36,610 nt of DNA from Methanobacteriota archaeon (GTDB lineage: Archaea > Thermoplasmatota > Poseidoniia > Poseidoniales > Poseidoniaceae), in NCBI GenBank assembly GCA_002719395.1, contig PBHM01000002.1, forward strand, positions 70,367-106,976, read 5' to 3'. Shown in pieces: positions 1-34,945 of the stretch (its first letter is position 1; each line of letters begins with the position of its first letter). The notes beneath the pieces were generated by a model that was not told the DNA's origin, did not search any database, and saw nothing but the letters and a program-made list of their open reading frames with translations. A program made the translations under genes and the position numbers.

Positions 1-279
1 GCTGCTGAAAAGGCACATAAAAGCATGGTTGAACTTGTCGAAGCGAATGAAGATCGCCATACTTCTTTTGTTGGATGGGAAGAAAAAAGAAGGAAACATA
101 CTTCACTCAGTGGGAAACTCACAACTGCCAAAAGATCCAGTGAAGAGGCGGTCAGATTTTGGCGAGGAACATTGGAAAAAGGACTTGAAGCACTGCTCAT
201 CGATGCGAAGCGTGTCGAAGAGGGTGGACAATCTACACTTTCACTGCGTAAAGAGAACAAAAGGAGTGAGGAAGAATGA
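1..279 (+). CDS. Coiled-coil protein, C-terminal end only (partial)
   Basis: An open frame runs from the first base to a TGA at 277-279, so the gene starts outside the window. The visible 92 residues are highly charged, rich in Glu, Lys and Arg, with heptad-like helical character and no membrane segment. The opening residues (AAEKAHKSM) resemble a stretch of the COG1340-type coiled-coil protein at 3284-4162 (AAQDAHELM), and the spacing of charged residues after it is similar, so the two may be paralogues. Its stop overlaps the start of the nucleotidyltransferase gene (ATGA at 276-279), which implies translational coupling. The function is unknown. A structural or scaffolding role beside the nucleotidyltransferase is inference only. 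Confidence 0.7.
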   Translation, partial: AAEKAHKSMVELVEANEDRHTSFVGWEEKRRKHTSLSGKLTTAKRSSEEAVRFWRGTLEKGLEALLIDAKRVEEGGQSTLSLRKENKRSEEE

Positions 280-2378
280 GTGAAATTTGTCCTACCACCG
301 GGTTCTCAAAAAAGTCCAAAGAAAGATGGCCATATCTTTGGGGGAAACTTACAAGTGGACAAAGTAACGAATTTCCGAACCAAGATTTAATTAAATCTAT
401 AGATAGAGGCATTAAAGAAGTGCTAAAAGTCAAGGATTCTTCGACTGGGGAAGAAAATCGACAAAATCTCATCAAACACTTGAGAAAAATTATTTGTTCT
501 AAAATTAAAGACGTCACTCTAGAAGCCTTTGGTTCAAGTCAATCAGGCCTATCACTGATTGGAGGTGATATCGATCTGTGTCTCAAGGTTCCAGATACGA
601 ATCCAAAACAGATACTTCGTCGCCTCAAAGGATTACTTGATGCACGAGGAATGGAACAGATCACTCTCATCTCCAAAGCGAGAATACCAATTATAAAATT
701 TCATGATCCTAAAAGTGGGTTTGATGTTGATATATCAATTAACAACAGTCTTGCTTTGCATAATACTGAATTATTATCTACATATGCTCAATTAGACCCA
801 GCCGTGAAAGATGCAATTTTAGCCGTGAAATATTGGGCTGTCCAAAGAAATATTGCCAATGCCTACCAAGGGACAATTTCCTCATACTCTTGGTCACTTT
901 TATCCCTCCAACACCTACAAGTCATGGAATCAATCAAACTACCAAACCTACAGTCATCTCAAAACCGTGAATTGATTACGATTGATAACCATGAATATGA
1001 TATTACCATCAACAAGGAAGTCCAAATAAACAAAATTGATATTGACGTGGGTGAAATTTTTGCTAAATTTATTTTCTTTTACGGACTTGAATTTGATTGG
1101 AGTAAAAAAGTGGTTTCAGTTAGAAATGGAATCCCAATGGAACGAAACGAAAAAGGATGGAGCTTACAAAAACCATCTGCTTCTGCTGCACACCACAGTG
1201 ATGATAAAAAATTGCGAATGGGTTCATACCATTTACCGATAGAAGATCCACTGGACACGGAAATTGATTTGGGGAGAGTACTCAAACCCGCAGGAGAATT
1301 AACAATCCTCAACGAGTTTTTAAGAGCGGCTTCAATGCTTAGCAAAGGAAAAAGTTTTGACGAAATTTGTGAAACCGTTGAGCCTCAACGTTTTGAATCC
1401 AAAAGCCCTGATGACTTGTTTGAAGATTTGCGAAACCTAAAGCCGCATGAGGTGAAAATTCTCCACGAAAATATACTGGATGATTTGTCAGTTGTTACAA
1501 AACGAATTGAAACCCTTGAATCTGAAAGATCGAGTGCGATTCGAATGGCAAAAGCCATGAGAGGAATTATCGAAGAGACTGGTGATATCAGGAAAAAACA
1601 CAAAGAAACCATCTTGTCCTTGAAAAGTCGAGGAAAGGAAATTGAATTAACCAAAAATAAAAGAGATTTAATCAATAAAAATATTGTTTTACCACTCCAT
1701 AGAATAGAGGAAGAACTTGTCAAGATTTATTCGCGCCTAACGGATTCTTTAGATTTGATGAGGGTTCAAACTTTGGAAAGGGAAAAAAGAGATTTCTCCT
1801 TTTTCTTCGAATTACAAAAAATGCATCACCAAGCAAAATCCTCCTCTGAATTACACCACAAGTACAACCAACTAAGGAAAGAACAAAGAAAAGATATCGA
1901 AAATCTTAGGAAATTTGAAAATGAGCACGATGAAGCTGCGAAAAATATTCTCGACCAAGAACCACTGCTCAAACAAGAAGATTTGGAAAACCGTCATGAC
2001 CGTTCTTGGGATAAAAGAGCAAATAAAATTACAATGATTTTGAGAAAAAGAAAAAAGGAACTCTACAAATTCAGAAGAGAAAAAGGAAGAATTGAGGCAT
2101 GGATGAGAATTGCACAAAAGAACAGTGCCAAAAGAAGAGGAAACAACAGGAACAAAAAGCATAGACCCACGTCACAAATAAGGGAAACTGTTGCTTCAGG
2201 TGGTTCGATAAGTCTGGGTGACCTCGATGCATTATTGAAATCAGGAGGTATTTCAAACCTCAACCAAAAAAATGATTCCACGCAAAAAAGACCTAAGAGG
2301 AAAAAAGGTAAAATGAAAAATCTCAATAATCTATCGCCGCATAGAGGTGAAAGAAACAAATACTCTCGAAAAGAATGA
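276..2378 (+). CDS. Cid1/Trf4-like terminal nucleotidyltransferase with long coiled-coil tail
   Basis: This 700-residue protein looks like a eukaryotic-type non-canonical poly(A)/poly(U) polymerase, which adds nucleotides to RNA 3' ends. The nucleotidyltransferase signature is at residues 86-101 (GSS, then GGDIDL), giving D98 and D100 as metal ligands and D152 (FDVDIS) as the likely third. The central domain follows the TUTase pattern: NNSLA at 156-160, KYWA at 185-188, GTISSYSW at 199-206. A PAP-associated segment holds VGEIFAKFIFFYGLEFDW (258-275) and IEDPLDTEIDLGR (322-334). At the place of the uracil-selecting His of Cid1 (H336) there is I330, so U-specificity is not predicted. Residues 380-640 are long charged coiled coils. 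Residues 645-659 (ISLGDLDALLKSGGI) resemble the C-terminal motif of COG1340 proteins. The tail is Lys/Arg-rich and may bind RNA. Archaeal CCA-adding enzymes share the first motif but not the TUTase central domain. Confidence 0.85.
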   Translation: MSEICPTTGFSKKSKERWPYLWGKLTSGQSNEFPNQDLIKSIDRGIKEVLKVKDSSTGEENRQNLIKHLRKIICSKIKDVTLEAFGSSQSGLSLIGGDIDLCLKVPDTNPKQILRRLKGLLDARGMEQITLISKARIPIIKFHDPKSGFDVDISINNSLALHNTELLSTYAQLDPAVKDAILAVKYWAVQRNIANAYQGTISSYSWSLLSLQHLQVMESIKLPNLQSSQNRELITIDNHEYDITINKEVQINKIDIDVGEIFAKFIFFYGLEFDWSKKVVSVRNGIPMERNEKGWSLQKPSASAAHHSDDKKLRMGSYHLPIEDPLDTEIDLGRVLKPAGELTILNEFLRAASMLSKGKSFDEICETVEPQRFESKSPDDLFEDLRNLKPHEVKILHENILDDLSVVTKRIETLESERSSAIRMAKAMRGIIEETGDIRKKHKETILSLKSRGKEIELTKNKRDLINKNIVLPLHRIEEELVKIYSRLTDSLDLMRVQTLEREKRDFSFFFELQKMHHQAKSSSELHHKYNQLRKEQRKDIENLRKFENEHDEAAKNILDQEPLLKQEDLENRHDRSWDKRANKITMILRKRKKELYKFRREKGRIEAWMRIAQKNSAKRRGNNRNKKHRPTSQIRETVASGGSISLGDLDALLKSGGISNLNQKNDSTQKRPKRKKGKMKNLNNLSPHRGERNKYSRKE

Positions 2379-22138: not shown

Positions 22139-23521
22139 TTGTATTTCGATGAAAGCGATACAATCAAAGAAATAGAATTGTTAAATCGTGAAAGCAAATC
22201 AATTGTTTGGGGCGTTCATCAGCAACATCATTTTATCATACCACCGACTGTTTATCCACCCCGTGAAGACACCACTCTCCTTGCAAATGAAATCACGAAA
22301 TTAGGACCTGGAAAAGGAAGGAAAGCGCTTGAGATAGGAAGTGGTAGTGGAGCGCTTAGCCTTATCATGTCCCAATTAGGGTGGAAAGTAGAAGCATGTG
22401 ATATTAATCCATATGCAGTGATGTCAACTAACTATAATTTGAAAAATGCTGGATTCGAAATTGTCTGTAGAGAAGGTGGACCCGGGCCTGATGGCATTCA
22501 ATGGGCTGCAAATGCTCCATATGACCTGATTGTTTGGAATACGCCCTACCTCTCCAGCGAAGATTACGCCAATCACTTAGGACCTCTGGAAGAGGCCGCA
22601 TTATCTGCAAATAGAGACATCAATCTAATGGAAATACTGATTCATCAGATTAACAAGCATCATCTTCTATCCAGAAATGGGCTTTTACTGATGCTGCATC
22701 AACAGAACCACACTCTTCTTGATATTGCTAGCCTCAATAGGATGGCATCCAGAAAATGTTCACGCAAAGTATTCGATGACGGTGAAGAAATCCAAGTTAC
22801 ATGTTTTTGGTACCCATGGCATAACAGTCTAATTGAACATGTAGAAAGCGTGGGTTCAACAAATCAAGCCCTTCTAGAAACTCAGGAAAAATTTGGATCT
22901 CACATGACAGCAAAGACTCAAACCATGGGCCGAGGGAGATATCAACGTACTTGGCTGAGCCCATCTGGTTCGTACTCTGGCTCGTGGATTCTTCATCCAG
23001 AATTGTCAATTAGCCCAGGACTAATCCAAATATTCGCAGGAATGTGTGTTATACGCTGCCTAAAGTCCTTTGAAGTCAATGATTTACATCAAAAATGGCC
23101 CAATGATATATTTTCAGATGAGGGGAAAATAGGAGGCATCCTCGTCGAATCCCAAAGTATAGGCAATCAGATGAAGGTTGTACTAGGCATCGGAGTCAAT
23201 CTTTCAAGTCACATGTCATTGAATGAGAAAGGCTATCCGCATGTGAAAAGTGAGGTAACGGTTGAATTTCACCAATTTGATGACAGGATACATGCTTATT
23301 TAGCGAGCATTTTTGAGTGTCGAAAAGAATTGCCCAAACCTGATTTCAAATTTCTTACTGAAGAGGCTTTTCAGTTAATCCGTACCTTTGGGATTCCAAT
23401 CTATAGAAATTTGGAGTGGCAGATTACAAACCTTACTCAGGATGGATTCCTTGTATTATCGAATGAAAACGAATCTCTGATTGTAAACGAAGGTGAAACT
23501 CTCGATTGGTCTAGGATATAA
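22139..23521 (+). CDS. Fusion: HemK2-like methyltransferase + biotin-protein ligase (BirA)
   Basis: The first 225 residues are a Rossmann methyltransferase of the HemK2/Mtq2 style: VYPPREDTTLL (39-49), the SAM-binding EIGSGSGALS (65-74), and WNTPYL (133-138) in the place of the catalytic NPPY. Residues about 233-460 are a biotin-protein ligase: the ESVGSTN start (236-242), GRGRYQRTW (264-272) for biotinyl-AMP, KWPND (319-323), and GKIGGILVES (329-338) with catalytic K330, then GIGVNLSS. It should biotinylate carboxylase carrier protein. The methyltransferase part may modify release factor or another protein, although the altered NPPY makes this uncertain. No in-frame ATG exists near the start, and a TTG at 22139 is used. 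I know of no standard enzyme with this domain pair. The last 11 bases overlap the convergent gene. Confidence 0.85.
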   Translation: MYFDESDTIKEIELLNRESKSIVWGVHQQHHFIIPPTVYPPREDTTLLANEITKLGPGKGRKALEIGSGSGALSLIMSQLGWKVEACDINPYAVMSTNYNLKNAGFEIVCREGGPGPDGIQWAANAPYDLIVWNTPYLSSEDYANHLGPLEEAALSANRDINLMEILIHQINKHHLLSRNGLLLMLHQQNHTLLDIASLNRMASRKCSRKVFDDGEEIQVTCFWYPWHNSLIEHVESVGSTNQALLETQEKFGSHMTAKTQTMGRGRYQRTWLSPSGSYSGSWILHPELSISPGLIQIFAGMCVIRCLKSFEVNDLHQKWPNDIFSDEGKIGGILVESQSIGNQMKVVLGIGVNLSSHMSLNEKGYPHVKSEVTVEFHQFDDRIHAYLASIFECRKELPKPDFKFLTEEAFQLIRTFGIPIYRNLEWQITNLTQDGFLVLSNENESLIVNEGETLDWSRI

Positions 23522-25879: not shown

Positions 25880-26827
25880 TTAATCGGTTTCTTTTCCGCT
25901 TACAACTGCAACAACACGAAGTGTGGTGTGCAAGTCTTCTGATATCCTTGCTCCAAGAATAACCTGAGCATTTTGGTCCAATCGGGAAGTGAAAATATCC
26001 GCAACTTGACTCACTTGACTGACCGTCATACCCAATCCACCTTCAATTTGCAGGAGACATCCCGTCGCACCGAAGATATCAATTTCAGCAAGTGGAGCTC
26101 TCATTGCATTTTCAAAAAGAAGATCTGGTTCATTTGCATCTCCTTGGGCTACGAGTAGGGTAGATTTACCATCTTTACTCACAATGGCTTTGAGGTCCAT
26201 CATATCCAGATTTATGAGTCCCATCTTCATGAGAGTCCTCACCAAACCTTCGACAAACTCCTCAACCCACAAAGCACCCATGGTCCAATCCGAACCACGC
26301 TCACGTGCCTGCCAAGCAAGACGATCCAGAGATAAACGGACGCAGATATCACTCATTCGTTCAAGTTCTAGTAATCCTTCATTTGCAATTTCCCTTCTGG
26401 CTTTTTGCGATTCAAAAGGTTCTGCAGCCAAGGTAATGACAACAGAACCTGAACGTTTGGCTTGTCGGGCGAATTCCATCCCTGCACCTGTACCAGTCCC
26501 TCCACCAAGGCCGAGTAAAAGTATGACCAACTCAACTTCTTTGAGAAGCATCATTGAGGCTTTTGACAAATTTCTCATGCGCTGCTCACCCAGAGGTGGT
26601 AAACCAGCACATCCGTTTGCGTTAGACTCTGCGCCTAATTTAATCACATGTGCTTGCTTTGATAACTCAAAACTCGATTCATCAGCATCGATTAAAACAA
26701 GATCCACATCTGCATTCACGCGGAGATGTGCCTTGCTCGCCCAAGAACAACCAAGTCCACCGACGCCGGCAATCAGAATTTGGGCGCCCTCCATGGACAC
26801 CCTTGGGGAATACGGTTCATCAATCAA
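25880..26827 (-). CDS. Divergent FtsZ/tubulin-family GTPase
   Basis: The 315-residue protein carries the tubulin/FtsZ signature GGGTGTGAG (108-116) for GTP phosphates, an N-terminal glycine loop GVGGLG (21-26), and a T7 loop GLINLDMMDLKAI (203-215) in which the NxDxxD pattern needed for GTP hydrolysis between subunits is kept. It should form GTP-dependent filaments in division or cell shape. It is shorter than typical archaeal FtsZ1/FtsZ2 (360-400), lacks an obvious C-terminal linker and anchor peptide, and the first loop reads GVGGLGCSW in place of a GxGGxGxN form. It may be an FtsZ-like paralogue. Its ATG overlaps the stop of the TPR gene by four bases. Confidence 0.8.
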   Translation of the reverse strand: MIDEPYSPRVSMEGAQILIAGVGGLGCSWASKAHLRVNADVDLVLIDADESSFELSKQAHVIKLGAESNANGCAGLPPLGEQRMRNLSKASMMLLKEVELVILLLGLGGGTGTGAGMEFARQAKRSGSVVITLAAEPFESQKARREIANEGLLELERMSDICVRLSLDRLAWQARERGSDWTMGALWVEEFVEGLVRTLMKMGLINLDMMDLKAIVSKDGKSTLLVAQGDANEPDLLFENAMRAPLAEIDIFGATGCLLQIEGGLGMTVSQVSQVADIFTSRLDQNAQVILGARISEDLHTTLRVVAVVSGKETD

Positions 26828-27129: not shown

Positions 27130-27280
27130 GCATATTCCAAAAGGTAGAGGAATATGGAAGTTTTGCTTGTTTATAAGGGCAGAATTTAAATTGTAAAAAA
27201 GGACACTGAGGACAAAAATTCACCATCATCAAGGAACGTTCATAAGACACCTACAGGTGGGTTACTTTGCCGGTGCTAAG

Positions 27281-28126
27281 ATGCTTGCCAAAGGTCTCAA
27301 ATTTCGTAACATCATTGCCTTGGCTCTCATGGCAATGCTGCTCCTACGTTCGGTAGGAAAAGCCTACCCATCGGGTATCGCTGGACCTTACGACGTGAAC
27401 GGAGACGGAAGCATCGATGCTGAGAACGATTTGCTAGATGTTGCAAAAGAAGGATGTACGTGCCATAACGCAGTACCCACAAACTCTGTACAAATTATTC
27501 TTGATGATGTTCCTTTTTCATGGGTACCCGGTCAATCATATACCATGGTCCTGCAACTCATTGGTGGACCAGACATCAACAGCGCAAGTAATACAGGAGG
27601 ATTCTCAATGCGATCATCTGAAGGCTCATTCACCGGAGACATGATGACTCAAAACGGAGATGATGACGAAAAAACACTCACTCACACTCAAGCAGGGGCT
27701 ACAACCGATGATCGAAAATGGACCATTGTCTGGGATGCCCCCGCAGAAGGAGGAATAGGTGCCATACACTTCTGGATTACTGGAAATAGTGTTGATGGCT
27801 TGAATGGAAACGGTGGAGCAGATGTTTGGAACCAGCTTATTTTCTTCCTTACTGAAAGCGATGAAGACTCTGGACTTGGTACAAGAACACTCTTAGCTGG
27901 AGATGGAAATGTAGCCCCACCAGAACCAACAGAACAAGGCGTTCCCATTCACGAGATGGGGGCGCATTTGCGAGCTCATTGGCTTGGTCTACTCGGATTC
28001 CTCTCGGTCGTATTGGTCATTATTTTTGCTGGATTTATGCTCAGGTATGGATTCTCCTCATCCTATGAAGGCCGTAGTAACTTGTTGAGGTTAAGATACA
28101 AAGTTAACCGAAGAGGTGACCAATAA
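27281..28126 (+). CDS. Choice-of-anchor-V/reeler-like surface protein at head of the quinol complex cluster
   Basis: The 281-residue protein has a signal peptide (IIALALMAMLLLRSVGKAYPSG), an EF-hand-like loop (DVNGDGSIDAEND, about 39-51), then a CTCH motif (C59, C61, H62). A beta domain follows whose blocks GGFSMRSSEGSF, LTHTQAG, DRKWTIVWDAP and GAIHFWITGNSVDG match the choice-of-anchor-V or reeler-like pattern. A membrane helix is near 235-257, with a short basic tail. It stands first in a run with the Rieske and cytochrome b genes, with the stop overlapping the next ATG. The Cys-x-Cys-His is one residue short of the c-type heme motif, so electron transfer cannot be claimed. An in-frame GTG at 27257 is possible. 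ATG 27281, after GGTG, is preferred. Confidence 0.7.
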   Translation: MLAKGLKFRNIIALALMAMLLLRSVGKAYPSGIAGPYDVNGDGSIDAENDLLDVAKEGCTCHNAVPTNSVQIILDDVPFSWVPGQSYTMVLQLIGGPDINSASNTGGFSMRSSEGSFTGDMMTQNGDDDEKTLTHTQAGATTDDRKWTIVWDAPAEGGIGAIHFWITGNSVDGLNGNGGADVWNQLIFFLTESDEDSGLGTRTLLAGDGNVAPPEPTEQGVPIHEMGAHLRAHWLGLLGFLSVVLVIIFAGFMLRYGFSSSYEGRSNLLRLRYKVNRRGDQ

Positions 28127-28572
28127 TGCCCCGTGATAATGTAACTGAGTTGTTGCTCAAGGTTTCTCGAGGAGAAGTGAGTGTCGAAGACGCAAAGACC
28201 GCGCTTTCTGATGTTGAACTAACTGAAGACCAGTTGGAAAAGGCCATCGATCACGGTGTATTCAACACCGCAGAACCAGGGACAGTAATTTCAGCAAAAC
28301 TAGCACCCTCTGGAGGTTCATATCTAGCCATCTTCTTTTTCGGATGGGGTATCTTTTGGGTATGCTATTGGTCGTTTACCATGTTATATGGCCTATTCAA
28401 CAAGTGGGACCAGCAGCAACTTTCATTTCATCTTGCTATGACTTTGACAGTATTGATTATGATGGGTGTTGTTTACATGCGATTCATCCTACCTGACAAG
28501 GTCATTGTAAAGCATCGAGCGAACAAGTACATTCCAAAACACCAGAAAGACTGGCGAGATTACAAAATTTAA
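28126..28572 (+). CDS. Small two-helix membrane protein of the quinol complex cluster
   Basis: The 148-residue protein begins with a helical soluble part (residues 1-50, LLLKVSRGEVSVEDAKTAL). It then has two membrane helices (about 66-88, LAIFFFGWGIFWVCYWSFTML; and 101-120, LAMTLTVLIMMGVVYM), ending in a basic tail (KHRANKYIPKHQKDWRD). It lies between the reeler-like and Rieske genes, with a 1-base overlap upstream (TAATG) and 9 bases before the Rieske gene. An accessory or assembly subunit of the complex is inference from position. No family is recognised. Confidence 0.75.
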   Translation: MPRDNVTELLLKVSRGEVSVEDAKTALSDVELTEDQLEKAIDHGVFNTAEPGTVISAKLAPSGGSYLAIFFFGWGIFWVCYWSFTMLYGLFNKWDQQQLSFHLAMTLTVLIMMGVVYMRFILPDKVIVKHRANKYIPKHQKDWRDYKI

Positions 28573-28581
28573 GGTGATATT

Positions 28582-29424
28582 ATGGATATGAAACTTAGAC
28601 CTGCTCCTGTTAAATCATCAGATGGTGTTGATGTAACAGGAGAAACGGTGATGAATCGCCGCCAATTTCTTCGCTATGGATTCAACGCTGCGGCCGGTGT
28701 CCTCACTGCATCCTTGGGGACATTGGGATTTGCCTCTATCCTTATGCCGCCGTCTGCTGGTAGTGAAGGAAATTTATCAGTTCTATACTGGGCAAAGGGA
28801 AGAGAAGATGATGCATGGTACGGGCCAAAACACCTCCAACCCATGCTCAAGTCTGATTTTGAAGCTGAGGCTGCAAAATCCCAGATTGGCGTAGCGGGAG
28901 CACAAGGAGTCTGGAATGGAGTCCCTGTCAACGTCACTTATGTCCCCCACAGCAAAAACGCAGGCAAGCCACTGGTCAACAACGTCCCTCGATTCCAAAT
29001 GACTGAGGGTGTCGATGTAACCGGTAAGATTGTCGGTCATTTTGAAGATCTCTCAGACGCAGACCCAACTATCTTCCCAAGTGATGACATTGTAATGGTT
29101 TTCAGCCGTTGCACCCACCTTTGCTGTATTCCAGGCTGGCAATTAGTAGCTAACGACTATACCGAAGATACTTGGACACCAGGAACCGGTGACGACAAAG
29201 GTAGCAAATTGTTCTGTATTTGTCACTCCAGTCGATTTAATCCAACCGTGCTCGAAATGAATTCCAATACAAATAGATCCAACGGACAGAAATTCAACTA
29301 TGCTGGTATCGCCAGGTCAGGCGGACCAGCACCCATGGGTCTTCCACTGATTCCCGTTTCAGTCACTGACGATGTGATTGAAGGCATGACTACCTACCTA
29401 GATTGGTTAACATATTGTGATTGA
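28582..29424 (+). CDS. Rieske iron-sulfur protein (Tat-type)
   Basis: The 280-residue protein has a twin-arginine start (NRRQFLRYGF, 25-34) and one hydrophobic helix, the usual N-terminal membrane anchor of Rieske proteins. The [2Fe-2S] site is CTHLCC (177-182) and CICHSS (212-217). By comparison with bc1/b6f, C177, H179, C212 and H215 bind the cluster, C182 and C214 form the disulfide, and S217 is the conserved serine. Two deviations are Cys181 for the usual Gly and Ile213 for Pro, which could shift the redox potential. It takes electrons from quinol at the Qo site of the cytochrome b encoded next. It is the third gene of the cluster, with GGTGAT before the ATG. Confidence 0.93.
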   Translation: MDMKLRPAPVKSSDGVDVTGETVMNRRQFLRYGFNAAAGVLTASLGTLGFASILMPPSAGSEGNLSVLYWAKGREDDAWYGPKHLQPMLKSDFEAEAAKSQIGVAGAQGVWNGVPVNVTYVPHSKNAGKPLVNNVPRFQMTEGVDVTGKIVGHFEDLSDADPTIFPSDDIVMVFSRCTHLCCIPGWQLVANDYTEDTWTPGTGDDKGSKLFCICHSSRFNPTVLEMNSNTNRSNGQKFNYAGIARSGGPAPMGLPLIPVSVTDDVIEGMTTYLDWLTYCD

Positions 29425-29433
29425 GGCGATAAG

Positions 29434-30303
29434 ATGAGTACATTTTTCTGGGTTCTTTGGTTTTTCATAGCCTTCATCATAGTTCTTATTGCACTAACGC
29501 TGAGAAAAGAAAACGAGGAAATGCCTCGTCGAGAAATCCTCAGAGCAGTGGAAAGTTCCGGCAAAATGGGTGCTGCAGAACGAACATTCCTCTGGGTTTT
29601 CTCATTCCTTGATACTCGTTTCAGACTTCAGGATTACTGGAACATGAGCAAAGGCGCTTACTACAACATGCATCGACAGATGCCTCTCACACACGCTGAA
29701 AAGTATAAATTGAGGATTATTTGGTATTGGTATCCACTTTATTGCCTAGGAGGCATCTCTTTCCTGGCCTTCATCATATTGGTAATTACTGGAACCGTAC
29801 TTGGCATATATTACGTTCCTGGTGGAGAGGGCAGCGATCCCACGCCCGCATATGCCAGCATGCAATTTATCATGACTGAGTTGCCATTTGGATACATTAT
29901 CAGATCCGTTCACCACTGGACTACGCACTTTATGGTAGCGGCAGTATTTCTTCACATGTGCCGTGTGTACTTCACCGGTGCTTACCGCAACCCAAGGGAA
30001 CTTAACTGGCTCATTGGTGTTGCTTTGATGGCACTTACCATCGCCTTTGGCTACTCAGGATACTTGCTCCCTTGGGATTCACTGGCGTTTGGAGCCGCAA
30101 CCATTGGTATCAATATGGCCCTTTCAACACCTCTGATTGGGAAACAAATTGCTACACTCATGTTCGGCGGTTCTTCATTGAGTGGCGCGACTGTGACAAG
30201 AATGTACTTTGTGCACGTATTTATCCTACCTGTTGTGGTCACTTCATTGATTATCATTCACTTATTTATCGTATGGGTACAAGGCATTGCGGAGCCACAT
30301 TGA
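29434..30303 (+). CDS. Cytochrome b6-like subunit with heme c_n cysteine
   Basis: The N-terminal half of cytochrome b, as in b6f. Heme b ligands are H160/H174 (spacing 14) and H261/H276 (spacing 15; 15 is the b6f form). The segment PLYCLGGISF (101-110) aligns with the b6 segment around Cys35, the covalent attachment site of heme c_n (c_i), so C104 should bind it. QFIMTELPFGYIIRSVHHW, the RNPRELNW loop and SGYLLPWD also match b6. The first 70 residues are additional to b6 and begin with a membrane helix (5-24). It accepts electrons from quinol and moves them across the membrane. The subunit-IV half is the next gene, so the protein is split like b6/IV. Confidence 0.93.
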   Translation: MSTFFWVLWFFIAFIIVLIALTLRKENEEMPRREILRAVESSGKMGAAERTFLWVFSFLDTRFRLQDYWNMSKGAYYNMHRQMPLTHAEKYKLRIIWYWYPLYCLGGISFLAFIILVITGTVLGIYYVPGGEGSDPTPAYASMQFIMTELPFGYIIRSVHHWTTHFMVAAVFLHMCRVYFTGAYRNPRELNWLIGVALMALTIAFGYSGYLLPWDSLAFGAATIGINMALSTPLIGKQIATLMFGGSSLSGATVTRMYFVHVFILPVVVTSLIIIHLFIVWVQGIAEPH

Positions 30304-30316
30304 AGGAGAGAATATC

Positions 30317-33124
30317 ATGGGATTAATGGAAAATCTTGGTCGTGTCGCAGACACCTACATGGAAGAGAAGCAGCGTTTGCTCTCTGCTGAAAAGGAACGT
30401 GTTAGGGAAAGAATGGGTCATGGATTTTGGCCTCATGAGGTACTTAGAGATTCAATAATTTTCGCTTCGATTATGGCGACCTTGCTCTTCTATGCGTGGC
30501 TCATTCCACCACCTCTACATAGCGCCGCAGACCCATTCGCACAAGCGGGTTTCGTATTCCCCGATTGGTATGTTTTGTTTAGTTATGGATACCTAAGATG
30601 GGGAGAATACCTCCCACAATTTAACGTTCCACTCGGACCAGTTGGCGAATTTTTCGGCCAACCTGTATTCCCATGGAACGCTGCATGGTGGGGTGCTGCC
30701 CTTACTGGCATCCCAGTTATGATTCTAGCTCTACCTCCATTCCTTGGTGGGCGAGAAAAGCGACCTGTCGAAGATCCTTGGTTTGCATCGGCAGGAGCCA
30801 TCTATTTGGCTCACGTTTGGTTTATTTCTGTATTCAGTATCAACATCTTCTTAGAATTATACGGGAAAAATAGAGCGGATTACTGCAAATTGGACAGTCA
30901 TGGAGACCTCGTATGCGGAGTTCGTGAACCATGGGTTGCAGATTTGTTCAATAGTATTCCATGGGTCCTCACCGGTATTCTGGTATGGATTGTATTATAT
31001 TTCGGAGCCAGATGGATTTTTGTTAACGCTTGGGGAGCAAGATTTACGCCATCACACGGCAAGAAACTCATTGTTGGAGCATTCGCTTTAGCAACCGCAT
31101 TCACCGTAGTAACCTATCCTGTTTACGATAACGGATTCTGGGGAGCTAAAGGACTCAACACCATTGCCGATTACGATGCTCTTGAAGAAATGCGAACCCA
31201 ACCAATAGATGTTCATGTTCACGAGGAAAATGAATTTACTACGCAGTTTGGATATGATGACCTTATGGTACCTACGATGGCTTGGCTCGATTGGGAAGAT
31301 TATCAACCAACTCGGACTCATATCATCGACTTTTTGGATGTTAATGGTCACCAAGATAGCCAATCTGGGACCAATGCTGTTTCTTTCTCTGGAGATTATA
31401 GCGGTGAAGATAAGATCAGTGAAACCGGTACTTTTACCATCACTAATGAGCATTGGCCATCTGAACTCAAAACAGTACCCGTCGACGCTGCCTGTGAATA
31501 CCGCGTCGATTCATCATTCAGAAAAATCGGAGATGTACTCACACTCTCATACATCTCAAGCACGATGACCATCGCTAAATCTAGCGGCGAGGTTGTCACA
31601 ACTATTCATGACTGTGAAGGGTTAACAGGGGTCGAGTTTGAAGCAGGGACCTACACATATGATTTCTTGGTTGAATCATCAGGGGCACTTGCTGCAAACA
31701 GTTCTATCGAAGTTGAAGCAACCATGGACATCAAGGCTTACCAACCACTTCTCACCTATCTTGACAGCGCTCCAGCTGCACTCGCAGGTCACAGTGTGAA
31801 CCTGAGTAGTTCTTCTGAACTCGCTGAAGCAGCGGGCTCATTTAGTGTCGTAGAAAATCCAGGATATCACGTAAACCCGATGGCATTGGATGCAAAACTG
31901 ATCTATGCCATGTTCATTCCATGTATCACTTTCGGAGCACTCGTATTTGTCCTTCTAAGGTCAATGGCGCGAGGATACGAATTTGAAATGAACAAATGCT
32001 ATGGATGCGATTTGTGCGATGATGCCTGTCCAGTGCGCCTCTTCAACGGAGGAGACAAACTCAACATCATCTACAACTCATGGAATAACGAAGATGATGG
32101 CGTTCCAATGTATTCATGTCTTACCTGCACAGCGTGTACCAACGCCTGCCCTCAACTTGTAGACTATGATTCATATGTAGATATTCGAAGAAGTCTCATC
32201 GTTGGTGCTCCGCAAGCCGAAATCCCACATACTGCCCTACAAGCTGTCCTTGCTGCCGAGGCTGAAGCAGAGGCTGATGAGCAGTTCTTGAGTGTTGAAG
32301 AACTAGAAATTGATTCAAACGTAGGATATTATCCAGGATGCGTTGATTACCTCGACCAAGAGATGGTTTTCAGCCACTTGAATGAGGGTTCCATGAATCT
32401 TGGTGACACCACGAACGCTGCCTTCACATTGTTTGAAGAGATGAATCAAGAAGTCACCTACCTAGGCCGTGACTTCCTCAAGTGCTGTGGACACGACCAA
32501 AAGTGGCAGGGTCTAACCGAAGTCTTTGAAAAATTGAAATCATATAACCAAAAGAAATTGGAAGCATCTGGAATAGACACTTTGGTCTCAAGTTGTGCCG
32601 AATGTTTCCGAACCTTCGCTCGAGATTACGAATTAGATGGTATCAAAGTCATGCATACAACTGAATATCTAACTGAGAACGGATTCAAACCCGATCTCAA
32701 AGCAGATCATGAAGTTACGGTGACTTACCACGACCCATGCAGGCTTGGAAGACAAATGGGCATTTACGATGAGCCAAGAGATCTACTTGGTGATGTCGAG
32801 GGAGTTAAACTCGTAGAAATGGAACACCATGGTGAAGATGCAATGTGTTGTGGAGTATCGAGTATGATGTCTTGCAACGAAAATGCTCGCTCGCTAAGAG
32901 TCGCTAGAATGGAAGAGATAAGAGAAACTGGAGCAGACATGATGATTACATCCTGTCCAAAATGTGTATCACACTTTGAATGTCTCAAATTTGAGGGTGA
33001 TGAAAAATACGATATCGAAATTTTGGATGTCGTAAGTTTCCTTGCCAAGCAGGTTGAGGCAAGCAAATCCAAGGCAAAAGACGTAATTTCTCCTTCCATT
33101 CAATCAGAAGAAGTTTCGGCTTGA
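30317..33124 (+). CDS. Subunit-IV-like cytochrome b domain fused to HdrD/GlpC-like Fe-S domain
   Basis: A 935-residue fusion. Residues 40-180 resemble b6f subunit IV, with Qo-site PDWY at 82-85 and three helices. Two more helices (about 217-238, 251-270) lead to an extracytoplasmic domain of about 255 residues with C393 and C433, then a sixth helix (528-550). The cytoplasmic part has two 4Fe-4S motifs (C561/564/567/571 and C601/604/607/611) and two CCG domains: C674, CCG 723-725, C760/C763, and C808, CCG 844-846, C880/C883. The second is the canonical CX35CCG form of heterodisulfide reductase HdrD and GlpC. The topology works: both domains fall on the expected sides. It may couple quinol to a cytoplasmic electron carrier or thiol/disulfide. 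Start ATG 30317 follows GGAG; the frame opens at 30287 inside the b6 gene. Confidence 0.9.
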   Translation: MGLMENLGRVADTYMEEKQRLLSAEKERVRERMGHGFWPHEVLRDSIIFASIMATLLFYAWLIPPPLHSAADPFAQAGFVFPDWYVLFSYGYLRWGEYLPQFNVPLGPVGEFFGQPVFPWNAAWWGAALTGIPVMILALPPFLGGREKRPVEDPWFASAGAIYLAHVWFISVFSINIFLELYGKNRADYCKLDSHGDLVCGVREPWVADLFNSIPWVLTGILVWIVLYFGARWIFVNAWGARFTPSHGKKLIVGAFALATAFTVVTYPVYDNGFWGAKGLNTIADYDALEEMRTQPIDVHVHEENEFTTQFGYDDLMVPTMAWLDWEDYQPTRTHIIDFLDVNGHQDSQSGTNAVSFSGDYSGEDKISETGTFTITNEHWPSELKTVPVDAACEYRVDSSFRKIGDVLTLSYISSTMTIAKSSGEVVTTIHDCEGLTGVEFEAGTYTYDFLVESSGALAANSSIEVEATMDIKAYQPLLTYLDSAPAALAGHSVNLSSSSELAEAAGSFSVVENPGYHVNPMALDAKLIYAMFIPCITFGALVFVLLRSMARGYEFEMNKCYGCDLCDDACPVRLFNGGDKLNIIYNSWNNEDDGVPMYSCLTCTACTNACPQLVDYDSYVDIRRSLIVGAPQAEIPHTALQAVLAAEAEAEADEQFLSVEELEIDSNVGYYPGCVDYLDQEMVFSHLNEGSMNLGDTTNAAFTLFEEMNQEVTYLGRDFLKCCGHDQKWQGLTEVFEKLKSYNQKKLEASGIDTLVSSCAECFRTFARDYELDGIKVMHTTEYLTENGFKPDLKADHEVTVTYHDPCRLGRQMGIYDEPRDLLGDVEGVKLVEMEHHGEDAMCCGVSSMMSCNENARSLRVARMEEIRETGADMMITSCPKCVSHFECLKFEGDEKYDIEILDVVSFLAKQVEASKSKAKDVISPSIQSEEVSA

Positions 33125-33387
33125 TCATCTTCTTCCATACCTTTAATCTCATAGTTTGAAGGAAATAAAGCAATTAATGTTCCACCGACTAAGCAAGCAA
33201 GGCCCCAGCCAAATGATTGACTTACAAACATAAGTTCTAAGGAAATAGCCACGAGTAAGAGTCCACCAATATTGGATACCCAAACCAATGTTTTGAATGT
33301 TGAAAGTGAAACTCCTGTAGTTTTACCTGTCCGTTTAGGGCCAAATTCTCCACCAAATCTCAACGCTTGCTTTTCTTCGTCATCCAT
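33100..33387 (-). CDS. Small two-helix membrane protein
   Basis: The 95-residue protein has two hydrophobic helices (about 33-53, LVWVSNIGGLLLVAISLELM; and 57-75, FGWGLACLVGGTLIALF) and charged ends. It is not recognised. It begins five bases after the ferredoxin stop, with the Shine-Dalgarno-like GGTGAT before the ATG, so it belongs to the ferredoxin/GshA/AsnB run. The end overlaps the convergent cytochrome b-Fe-S gene by 25 bases. Confidence 0.65.
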   Translation of the reverse strand: MDDEEKQALRFGGEFGPKRTGKTTGVSLSTFKTLVWVSNIGGLLLVAISLELMFVSQSFGWGLACLVGGTLIALFPSNYEIKGMEEDDQAETSSD

Positions 33388-33392
33388 TCATA

Positions 33393-33725
33393 TCACCTAT
33401 CAATCATTTCTATCGCATCTGTCGGACAAGCCAATACACATAATCTGCAACCTGTACAAGCATCCCTGATGATTTTTGCCTTCCTATTTGAGGGGACTTG
33501 CATAAGCGGAGAGGCTACGTCTTTGAAATAGAGTTCAATGGCTTCATCATCACATACAATCGTGCACTGATCGCAGCCAATACACAAGGATTCGGTAACC
33601 CAAGCAACCGTCCCATCACCACCTTTGATGCTTGCCTGTTTCTCTCCACGCTGCTTGGCTAAACTCAAAGCAATTTTTTTGGCTTCCTGTTCCCGCCTTT
33701 TGGAAAGTTCATCTGGTGAAGTCAT
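33393..33725 (-). CDS. Two-cluster [4Fe-4S] ferredoxin
   Basis: The 110-residue protein has two bacterial-type 4Fe-4S motifs: CIGCDQCTIVC (C48, C51, C54, C58) and CTGCRLCVLACP (C90, C93, C96, C100). They are separated by a longer than usual spacer (59-89), and an N-terminal helical extension of 40 residues is rich in Lys and Glu. The first motif has Asp-Asp in place of Cys-Pro after its last Cys. It should carry low-potential electrons in the cytoplasm. Its ATG overlaps the gshA stop by four bases. A partner is not visible, though the Fe-S fusion protein on the other strand ends close by. Confidence 0.88.
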   Translation of the reverse strand: MTSPDELSKRREQEAKKIALSLAKQRGEKQASIKGGDGTVAWVTESLCIGCDQCTIVCDDEAIELYFKDVASPLMQVPSNRKAKIIRDACTGCRLCVLACPTDAIEMIDR

Positions 33726-34945
33726 GATAACACACCCCCATCACGAGGTTGTTGGCTTCTGATTTGTAGTTCTCTTCCCATTGCAAGCATGGACAATTCA
33801 GCAACAAGTTCGTGCCAATTTCTGGCTCGTGCCGTTAAAATTTCATCTACCTCTGTTCGATTGGCGAAAACTGAACTTGGTGAATTTAGATTATCTTGGT
33901 CTGATTTTTTCTTATTCATCCTATAGAACCAAGATGCAGCCTGACCGTCCACCAAATAAACTACGGGCTCAACAGTATGGTCATTGAACCTCATGGCAGT
34001 TGGTACACCTTCCTGTATCAAGAAGTTTTCAACTTTTGAACCACTTTTGGAATACATCAATTTCTTCATTTTCCTATTCGATAAGTTGAGTAATTCCTTT
34101 CCTTCTGAAAGAACCAAAATACCCAACCCGTATGTTCCTCTATCATTTTTGAGGAATACAACAGGTTTGCGATTAATGCCTAATGTCTCATATTTTGATT
34201 GTATTTTCCCAATGAAAGCATCAATTTCAGATGCAAGTCTGATACGACAAGAGTCTTCATCAAGACATTTATCCTCAGAAACGAACCAATCTGCCATCAA
34301 ATGCCACGGATCAATATCCAACAATAAAGCCATTTGGTTTGTGTAGTATTCTAAAGCCTCAAAGTGCTCAGATTTTCGACGAAGATGCCAGCCCATAGCA
34401 GGGTCCGGAGTCACATTCATCTCAGAAATCCCAGGAAGTATTCCCCCCGAAAGGTCATTATTCAGTAAAATAAGATCTGGTTGTTTTCCATCGACGAGAA
34501 GTACATCATCAATCGATTCGGTTTTGTTTAATACCAAAGGGCCGCTCAAGCCGTGAAGGTCATCAAAATCTGACAATTCTGGCGACCCAACCGTACATTT
34601 GTAACCTGCTGAGATAACAAGTTCTTGAATCGCTTTTACATTCTCTATATATGCCTGATTTCTGGAATGACTCTCAGGATAGAGATGAACCCACTGACAA
34701 TCAGGATTTTGACGGCGAATGTGTTCTGAAAGTAATCTGGCCAAGTCGTCTTTCTCATCTTCATTTACATTATTGAATCCGGCAGGAAAGTGATTTGCGT
34801 CAACGACAGCCACTTTCCAATCAGCATCACGAATGTCTACACTTCCGTAAATTGGCAAAGGGATCTCAGCTCTTTTTTGTGCAAACCATGCCTCAATTTC
34901 AGGCCTTTTTTGCTCAATAATATCGTGAAGTAATGGATGATTCAA
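33722..34945 (-). CDS. gshA: Glutamate-cysteine ligase (PF08886 type)
   Basis: The 407-residue protein has the signature of the PF08886 glutamate-cysteine ligase: PIYGSVDIRDADWK (31-44) followed by VVDANHFPAGFNN (47-59), and the later KNDRGTYGLGI (266-276), an ATP-grasp-like phosphate loop. The reaction joins glutamate and cysteine to gamma-glutamylcysteine, a thiol antioxidant and glutathione precursor. No glutathione synthetase is in the window, so gamma-glutamylcysteine may itself be the thiol, as in haloarchaea that use a different GshA family. It overlaps asnB by four bases and the ferredoxin by four, so it is the centre of a coupled operon. A related amino acid ligase with another substrate remains possible. 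Confidence 0.8.
   Translation of the reverse strand: MNHPLLHDIIEQKRPEIEAWFAQKRAEIPLPIYGSVDIRDADWKVAVVDANHFPAGFNNVNEDEKDDLARLLSEHIRRQNPDCQWVHLYPESHSRNQAYIENVKAIQELVISAGYKCTVGSPELSDFDDLHGLSGPLVLNKTESIDDVLLVDGKQPDLILLNNDLSGGILPGISEMNVTPDPAMGWHLRRKSEHFEALEYYTNQMALLLDIDPWHLMADWFVSEDKCLDEDSCRIRLASEIDAFIGKIQSKYETLGINRKPVVFLKNDRGTYGLGILVLSEGKELLNLSNRKMKKLMYSKSGSKVENFLIQEGVPTAMRFNDHTVEPVVYLVDGQAASWFYRMNKKKSDQDNLNSPSSVFANRTEVDEILTARARNWHELVAELSMLAMGRELQIRSQQPRDGGVLS

Follow-up and report, generated by a model that had tools for sequence, protein, structure and literature searches.

A b6f-type complex III of Poseidoniales with a covalent cytoplasmic iron–sulfur arm, a possible ferredoxin:quinone reductase

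With which partners does a complex III exchange electrons when its subunit IV is fused to an HdrD-like iron–sulfur module? This question is raised by a 935-residue chain encoded in the window, a stretch of 36,610 nucleotides from a genome of the Poseidoniales (Marine Group II, MGII), an order that earlier work ranks first in abundance among the planktonic archaea of ocean surface waters. Both an "MGII specific" complex III and an orphan RnfB are known from papers on this group: Tully 2019 described cytochrome b and Rieske proteins without a canonical complex III, and an orphan RnfB that was left unplaced (PMC6336850), while the main text of Rinke 2018 is silent on both. These two gaps in the MGII respiratory chain can now be placed in one conserved complex. 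Our best explanation, to which we give a probability of roughly one half, is that a b6f-type complex III with a built-in cytoplasmic wire would work as a ferredoxin:quinone reductase with inward electron flow. None of the papers found by a full-text literature search, in which subscription journals are thinly covered and may hold one, describes a subunit IV–Hdr fusion, in line with the initial annotation, which had regarded the fusion as undescribed.

Anatomy and distribution of the fusion protein

The fusion is the last gene of a five-gene operon:

27257–28126, + strand: choice-of-anchor V protein (Reeler-like beta-sandwich) with a C-terminal membrane anchor and a GCxCH motif (NCBIfam NF041895, 8.9e-19)
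28126–28572, + strand: small two-helix membrane protein, a conserved operon member with a homologue in the haloarchaeal operon too
28582–29424, + strand: Rieske [2Fe-2S] protein with a twin-arginine signal and the boxes CTHLCC and CICHSS (TIGR01416, 1.7e-7, below its cut-off)
29434–30303, + strand: cytochrome b6 (PF00033, 8.8e-43), with Cys104 (YCLGG) for heme c_n
30317–33124, + strand: fusion protein of 935 aa (subunit IV, outside domain, two [4Fe-4S] motifs, two CCG domains)

This gene order was found at all loci of the window's order with enough flank. Wherever the flank of an inspected order genome was long enough, an FtsZ-family gene (25880–26827, − strand in the window) adjoined the operon. 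Elsewhere in the window, 276–2378 (+) encodes a 700-aa protein with MTPAP-like and PAP_assoc domains (a non-canonical poly(A) polymerase of the eukaryotic type), unusual in an archaeon, and 22139–23521 (+) a single chain in which a Small-methyltransferase domain is fused to a biotin/lipoate ligase domain.

The fusion gene is a single unbroken frame of 935 codons from an ATG at 30317 to a stop at 33124, with AAGGAG about a dozen bases 5' of the ATG; a scan for a promoter gave matches at chance level. Its parts, all on the + strand, are as follows:

30317–31036, + strand: subunit IV part (residues 1–240), with helices E–H and the PDWY Qo motif, assigned through a homology chain to PF00032
31127–31894, + strand: outside domain (residues 271–526), weakly Ig-like, with two invariant Cys, present in the window's order only
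31985–32155, + strand: two [4Fe-4S] motifs (residues 557–613; Fer4_8, 3.5e-7)
32327–32617, + strand: CCG domain 1 (CCG1, residues 671–767), with a complete Cys set in the window protein
32720–32977, + strand: CCG domain 2 (CCG2, residues 802–887), also complete

The subunit IV part scored 0.041 with PF00032, below the Pfam cut-off, and a haloarchaeal homologue scored 1.4e-9; the assignment was hence made by homology to this haloarchaeal member of the family. The PEWY-type Qo motif is present as PDWY. In alignments, the heme-ligand His of cytochrome b6 are conserved (20 sequences) and both Rieske boxes are present. The CCG family (PF02754) matches the fusion twice (6e-24). The cubane cysteines form two CX2CX2CX3C motifs (561/564/567/571 and 601/604/607/611), followed by the cysteines of CCG1 (675, 723/724, 760/763) and CCG2 (808, 844/845, 880/883). 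Hydropathy analysis detected six helices, the first four of the cytochrome-b C-terminal type and two more at 251–269 and 528–546, separated by about 255 residues. The domain between them matches no Pfam family and shows a weak Ig-like (SpyCatcher-type) similarity. An AlphaFold model of the whole fusion (18-row alignment) was poor outside the CCG domains. Together, frame, Pfam matches, cysteines and hydropathy bear out the architecture first read from the DNA, namely one 935-residue chain with a PDWY motif, six helices, a 255-residue outside domain, two [4Fe-4S] motifs and two CCG domains, and we regard this anatomy and its conservation as nearly certain. The encoded proteins thus show a predicted quinol-oxidising core (Rieske, cytochrome b6, subunit IV) with a covalently attached 2[4Fe-4S]-2CCG arm.

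Subunit IV has four helices (E–H) and the two extra helices are paired around the outside domain, so that the Fe-S part is predicted to be cytoplasmic in four- and six-helix forms alike. The arm very likely lies on the cytoplasmic (n) side, and the proposal of a b6f-like complex with an HdrD-like Fe-S arm in the cytoplasm is upheld by this topology and by the b6f-type core genes. The same proposal had set the arm beside heme c_n: Cys104 of cytochrome b6 is indeed present in the window, and many homologues from Marine Group III have Ser in its place, indicating that the arm does not depend on the heme c_n cysteine.

The possibility that the fusion is an assembly artefact was ruled out, as full-length homologues occur in independent genomes throughout the order at 57–97% identity. 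Among relatives from the two families of the window's order, 59/59 gave a fusion match; in the phylum sample, a strong match was obtained for 124 of the 128 order genomes, a weak match alone for three and a fragment for one. Nearly all of these genomes are drafts, and the single-contig genome G011 carries an intact fusion. Other Thermoplasmatota lineages have simpler or split versions, and four forms could be distinguished. Form (a), which has no arm, occurs in Halospeciosus flavus and several Thermoplasmata/Euryarchaeota MAGs (L075, L080, L081, L084); its subunit IV stops at Y-x-x-x-LN-x-x-Y, the point at which the fused forms run on into the first ferredoxin Cys. In form (b) the arm is shared between two genes (subunit IV plus 2[4Fe-4S], then CCG), as at every locus seen in Marine Group III, which belongs to the same class as the window's order, and at L077. 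Form (c) is a single chain without the outside domain (L078, L057), and form (d), with the outside domain, is that of the window's order. Outside Thermoplasmatota the distribution was followed by one scan for short conserved subunit IV motifs. In a tree, those subunit-IV-linked CCG modules of forms (b) to (d) that were included make up one clade (100/100), apart from the other HdrD-like proteins of the phylum in the same tree, suggesting a probable single origin of the arm. For cytochrome b6 the tree is weak at its base and does not tell whether form (a) is ancestral or the product of loss.

Partners on the two faces of the complex

No recognisable cytochrome f is encoded in the operon, and the place of the p-side acceptor appears to be taken by the choice-of-anchor V protein. 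In relatives of form (a) the first gene of the operon encodes a cupredoxin (PF00127, 1.3e-11 and 3.6e-6) on a C-terminal anchor resembling that of the choice-of-anchor V protein. Since this cupredoxin sits on a similar anchor at the same gene position, the choice-of-anchor V head probably replaces it, and the protein is probably a candidate p-side electron acceptor in cytochrome f's place. Its GCxCH motif occurs without variation in the operon homologues (16/16 and 12/12), and CcmF/CcmC-type cytochrome c maturation genes were found in 20/20 genomes. The motif is also found in large choice-of-anchor V proteins away from the operon, so that heme binding at GCxCH is suggested tentatively. The 12 order genomes surveyed encode 3–6 choice-of-anchor V proteins each, several of 600–900 aa, with GCxCH in each of those inspected. 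The AlphaFold model of the operon protein had a pLDDT of 65 and no informative PDB match. It is therefore unsafe to say, as was done earlier, that cytochromes f and c are not encoded here, given a GCxCH protein at the cupredoxin position and the CcmF/CcmC-type genes in all 20 genomes; with a p-side acceptor candidate heading the operon, that statement is probably wrong in spirit.

On the cytoplasmic face, two genes beside the fusion point to the nature of the partner:

33100–33387, − strand: small two-helix membrane protein that accompanies the RnfB-like ferredoxin
33393–33725, − strand: RnfB-like 2[4Fe-4S] ferredoxin (TIGR01944, 6.4e-12)

In 15/18 order genomes both genes are found at most 1.5 kb from the fusion, on either strand. 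Against a ferredoxin wire, the RnfB-like gene is often on the opposite strand and is not found within this distance in the remaining three of the 18. The Marine Group III operon is longer, its genes overlapping or abutting those of two further products, an RnfB-like 2[4Fe-4S] protein and a small membrane protein. There the N-terminus of the RnfB-like protein is fused to a flavodoxin (PF00258, 7.5e-27) at six loci (L062, L064, L065, L067, L069, L072) and to a 2[4Fe-4S] ferredoxin at five (L060, L063, L066, L068, L070). Since these two carriers of low potential classically stand in for each other, the swap between them indicates the kind of partner that meets the arm. Such a swap is possibly a pattern of iron limitation. 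These carrier fusions, with the RnfB-like neighbour in the window's order, lend independent support to the initial proposal of a link to a ferredoxin pool, and the arm is probably a wire to the ferredoxin/flavodoxin pool. The RnfB-like protein of the window's order is probably the orphan RnfB of Tully 2019 (PMC6336850). In another family, the fusion is followed directly by the gene of an HdrA-like protein that has an MvhD domain (PF02662, 1.4e-17), suggesting that more than one kind of donor or acceptor can meet the arm in the cytoplasm.

Carrier proteins tied to the operon in this way argue against an arm that would be a redox sensor or a structural element tuning complex III with no net electron exchange. 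The loss of a CCG1 cysteine in some lineages and the existence of the armless relatives fit such a role, yet the aligned sequences retain the cysteines of the cubane motifs and of CCG2, and we consider it most improbable.

Wire or catalyst, and the direction of electron flow

The solved structure closest to the CCG domains is EtfD (Foldseek 8e-11; profile 2e-28), followed by HdrB (profile 1e-9), and the NCBIfam neighbours of the arm include TfrB, LdhH, GlpC and GlcF. The likeness to HdrD and GlpC that had been noticed holds for HdrD; the homology is nearer to TfrB, EtfD and HdrB-type CCG modules than to GlpC. The closeness to EtfD and these neighbours would suit a soluble flavin dehydrogenase (of the ETF, lactate, glycolate or glycerol-phosphate type) that feeds the arm, as for other CCG proteins. 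No dehydrogenase gene is present in the conserved neighbourhood, however, and the genome encodes a separate EtfD-like protein (G000:C1:13876-14841, L002) with a NarI-like membrane part, 2[4Fe-4S] and two CCG domains with CPHC and CT, making a donor of this kind very unlikely for the fusion. CCG matches similar to this EtfD-like protein recur across the order. The fusion has neither the EtfD-type CCG1 (CC to CT, CPHC), showing KCCG and CAEC instead, nor a NarI-like membrane part in its own chain, its membrane part being subunit IV.

EtfD takes up electrons from ETF and delivers them, by way of its CCG and cubane clusters, to heme b and menaquinone; its CCG domains hold a linear [3Fe-4S] cluster and a closed noncubane cluster and serve as a relay only, since Thr stands in for one Cys and the second cluster is closed by a His (PMC13083937). 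Wherever CCG1 could be read in a Marine Group III homologue, it is degenerate. In most of these homologues CC has become CS (KCSG), with Ser at the position of the EtfD Thr and of the linear [3Fe-4S] cluster, which argues for a wire there and against a catalyst; the rest of them and L077 lack the last CCG1 Cys (CAEG). As the CCG1 cysteine was lost in two ways, disulfide catalysis at two clusters is not a conserved function.

The window's order differs in having kept all ten CCG cysteines, and the sets are complete in two other families too. These complete CCG1 and CCG2 sets tell against the wire reading and make catalysis possible in this order. The arm might then be a disulfide reductase whose two noncubane clusters cleave a cytoplasmic disulfide (e.g. 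of gamma-glutamylcysteine) with electrons from cytochrome b6; as a precedent, such a module is fed by a membrane cytochrome b in HdrDE. Next door lies gshA for glutamate-cysteine ligase (33722–34945, − strand; PF08886, 6.7e-99), paired with an asparagine-synthase-like gene (asnB). This pair is a separate unit whose adjacency to the operon is not universal and does not hold in several genomes. Moreover, the arm modules carry an invariant Glu in the CxxC of CCG1 (CAEC in the window) at a position taken by Gly in HdrB and, in EtfD, by the His closing cluster D2. The Glu is shared with other HdrD-like proteins of the phylum; it was hence inherited and is not an adaptation specific to the arm. An HdrE-type membrane partner is not seen either, the arm's membrane partner being cytochrome b6/subunit IV. 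With CCG1 degenerate in Marine Group III, FlpD/MvhD partners of HdrA found in 0/20 genomes of the window's order and gshA in another gene pair, the thiol/disulfide link put forward at first is weakened, and we hold a disulfide reductase to be quite unlikely.

If the arm is a wire to the ferredoxin/flavodoxin pool, the direction of flow has to be considered. Genes for 2-oxoacid:ferredoxin oxidoreductase were found in 20/20 order genomes. NuoD was present in 15/15 genomes tested (order genomes 5/5), while NuoF (the 51 kDa NADH subunit) was found in 1/20 order genomes and in 1/7 of Marine Group III. The MGII complex I has been called a canonical NADH dehydrogenase (PMC6336850), a description to be set beside this single NuoF in 20 order genomes. 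With 2-oxoacid:ferredoxin oxidoreductase in every genome and a complex I mostly without its NADH module, ferredoxin is a main carrier to be reoxidised. A ferredoxin-centred metabolism favours, and does not prove, inward flow, and, as a point against it, complex I could also oxidise ferredoxin by itself. The potential of ferredoxin (about −400 mV) is far more negative than that of menaquinone (about −80 mV), so that reduction of the Qi site from the cytoplasm is downhill.

For inward flow, we propose that the RnfB-like ferredoxin would dock on the arm, whose cubane and CCG clusters would carry electrons from reduced ferredoxin or flavodoxin to heme bH/c_n and to the quinone at Qi; the complex would act as a ferredoxin:quinone reductase. 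Through the Qo site it would become a ferredoxin:cupredoxin/cytochrome oxidoreductase with energy conserved, the Rieske electron passing on the p side to the choice-of-anchor V head or cupredoxin and then to an oxidase. The AlphaFold model gives no arm-to-heme bH/c_n distances, because the membrane/Fe-S junction has a mean pLDDT of 53. We put the chances of inward flow being the main direction at about even.

The same anatomy and the same carriers would also serve outward flow, in which quinol electrons would be bifurcated at Qo, with Rieske receiving the high-potential one and ferredoxin or flavodoxin the low-potential one, by way of bH/c_n and the arm. For such flow from quinol to ferredoxin, the cost would be met by the high-potential branch at Qo; with menaquinol, the overall reaction is near balance by textbook potentials. 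The HdrA-like protein with an MvhD domain encoded next to the fusion in some relatives belongs to the partner set of bifurcating Hdr, yet HdrA/MvhD was found in 0/20 genomes of the window's order. Moreover, an electron moving to the cytoplasmic side opposes the membrane potential, and reduced ferredoxin is already supplied by 2-oxoacid oxidation. Outward flow as such seems unlikely, and inward flow from ferredoxin appears at least as likely as the outward splitting of quinol electrons. We also entertain, tentatively, a reversible two-sided complex III in which Qo bifurcation is coupled to the low-potential ferredoxin/flavodoxin pool via the arm. If this were true, O2-driven quinol oxidation would make low-potential reductant, or such reductant would enter at Qi, and energy coupling of a third kind would stand alongside flavin-based bifurcation and the plain Q cycle.

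Comparison with known systems

The core shares with b6f-type and haloarchaeal bc complexes the split cytochrome b (b6 plus subunit IV), the heme His, the PDWY-type Qo motif, the Rieske boxes and the heme c_n Cys, and with the armless archaeal relatives the gene order (p-side head, small membrane protein, Rieske, b6, subunit IV). It differs from b6f-type complexes in the 2[4Fe-4S]-2CCG arm of subunit IV, in the extra outside domain (window's order) and in the lack of a recognisable cytochrome f.

Mycobacterial EtfD (9ojn; PMC13083937) likewise has a membrane-bound 2[4Fe-4S]-2CCG module that feeds a quinone site via heme b; unlike the complex described here, its membrane part has five helices and one b heme, with no Rieske protein, and its partner is ETF. 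HdrD/HdrDE and HdrBC of methanogens share the order of the Fe-S module and the CCG Cys pattern, the window fusion having 2[4Fe-4S] followed by two complete CCG motifs as in HdrD/HdrB, and HdrDE also has a membrane cytochrome b as partner. HdrE is, in contrast, a NarI-type cytochrome b and not a Qo-site complex, the CoM/CoB context is absent for the fusion, and CCG1, unlike that of HdrD/HdrB, is not conserved in the Marine Group III homologues of the arm.

The fourth comparison is with RnfB and the ferredoxin-dependent cyclic flow via b6f. The rest of Rnf is missing in MGII (PMC6336850), and entry of ferredoxin electrons at heme c_n is a standing proposal for cyclic flow (PMC9342900). Shared with these systems are an RnfB-like 2[4Fe-4S] protein at the complex and a proposed entry at the n side/heme c_n. 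The ferredoxin–b6f link of chloroplasts is transient and debated, whereas the arm of the window's complex is covalent; the arm would thus be a covalent, testable version of the n-side ferredoxin entry to b6f that has been argued for decades in cyclic flow.
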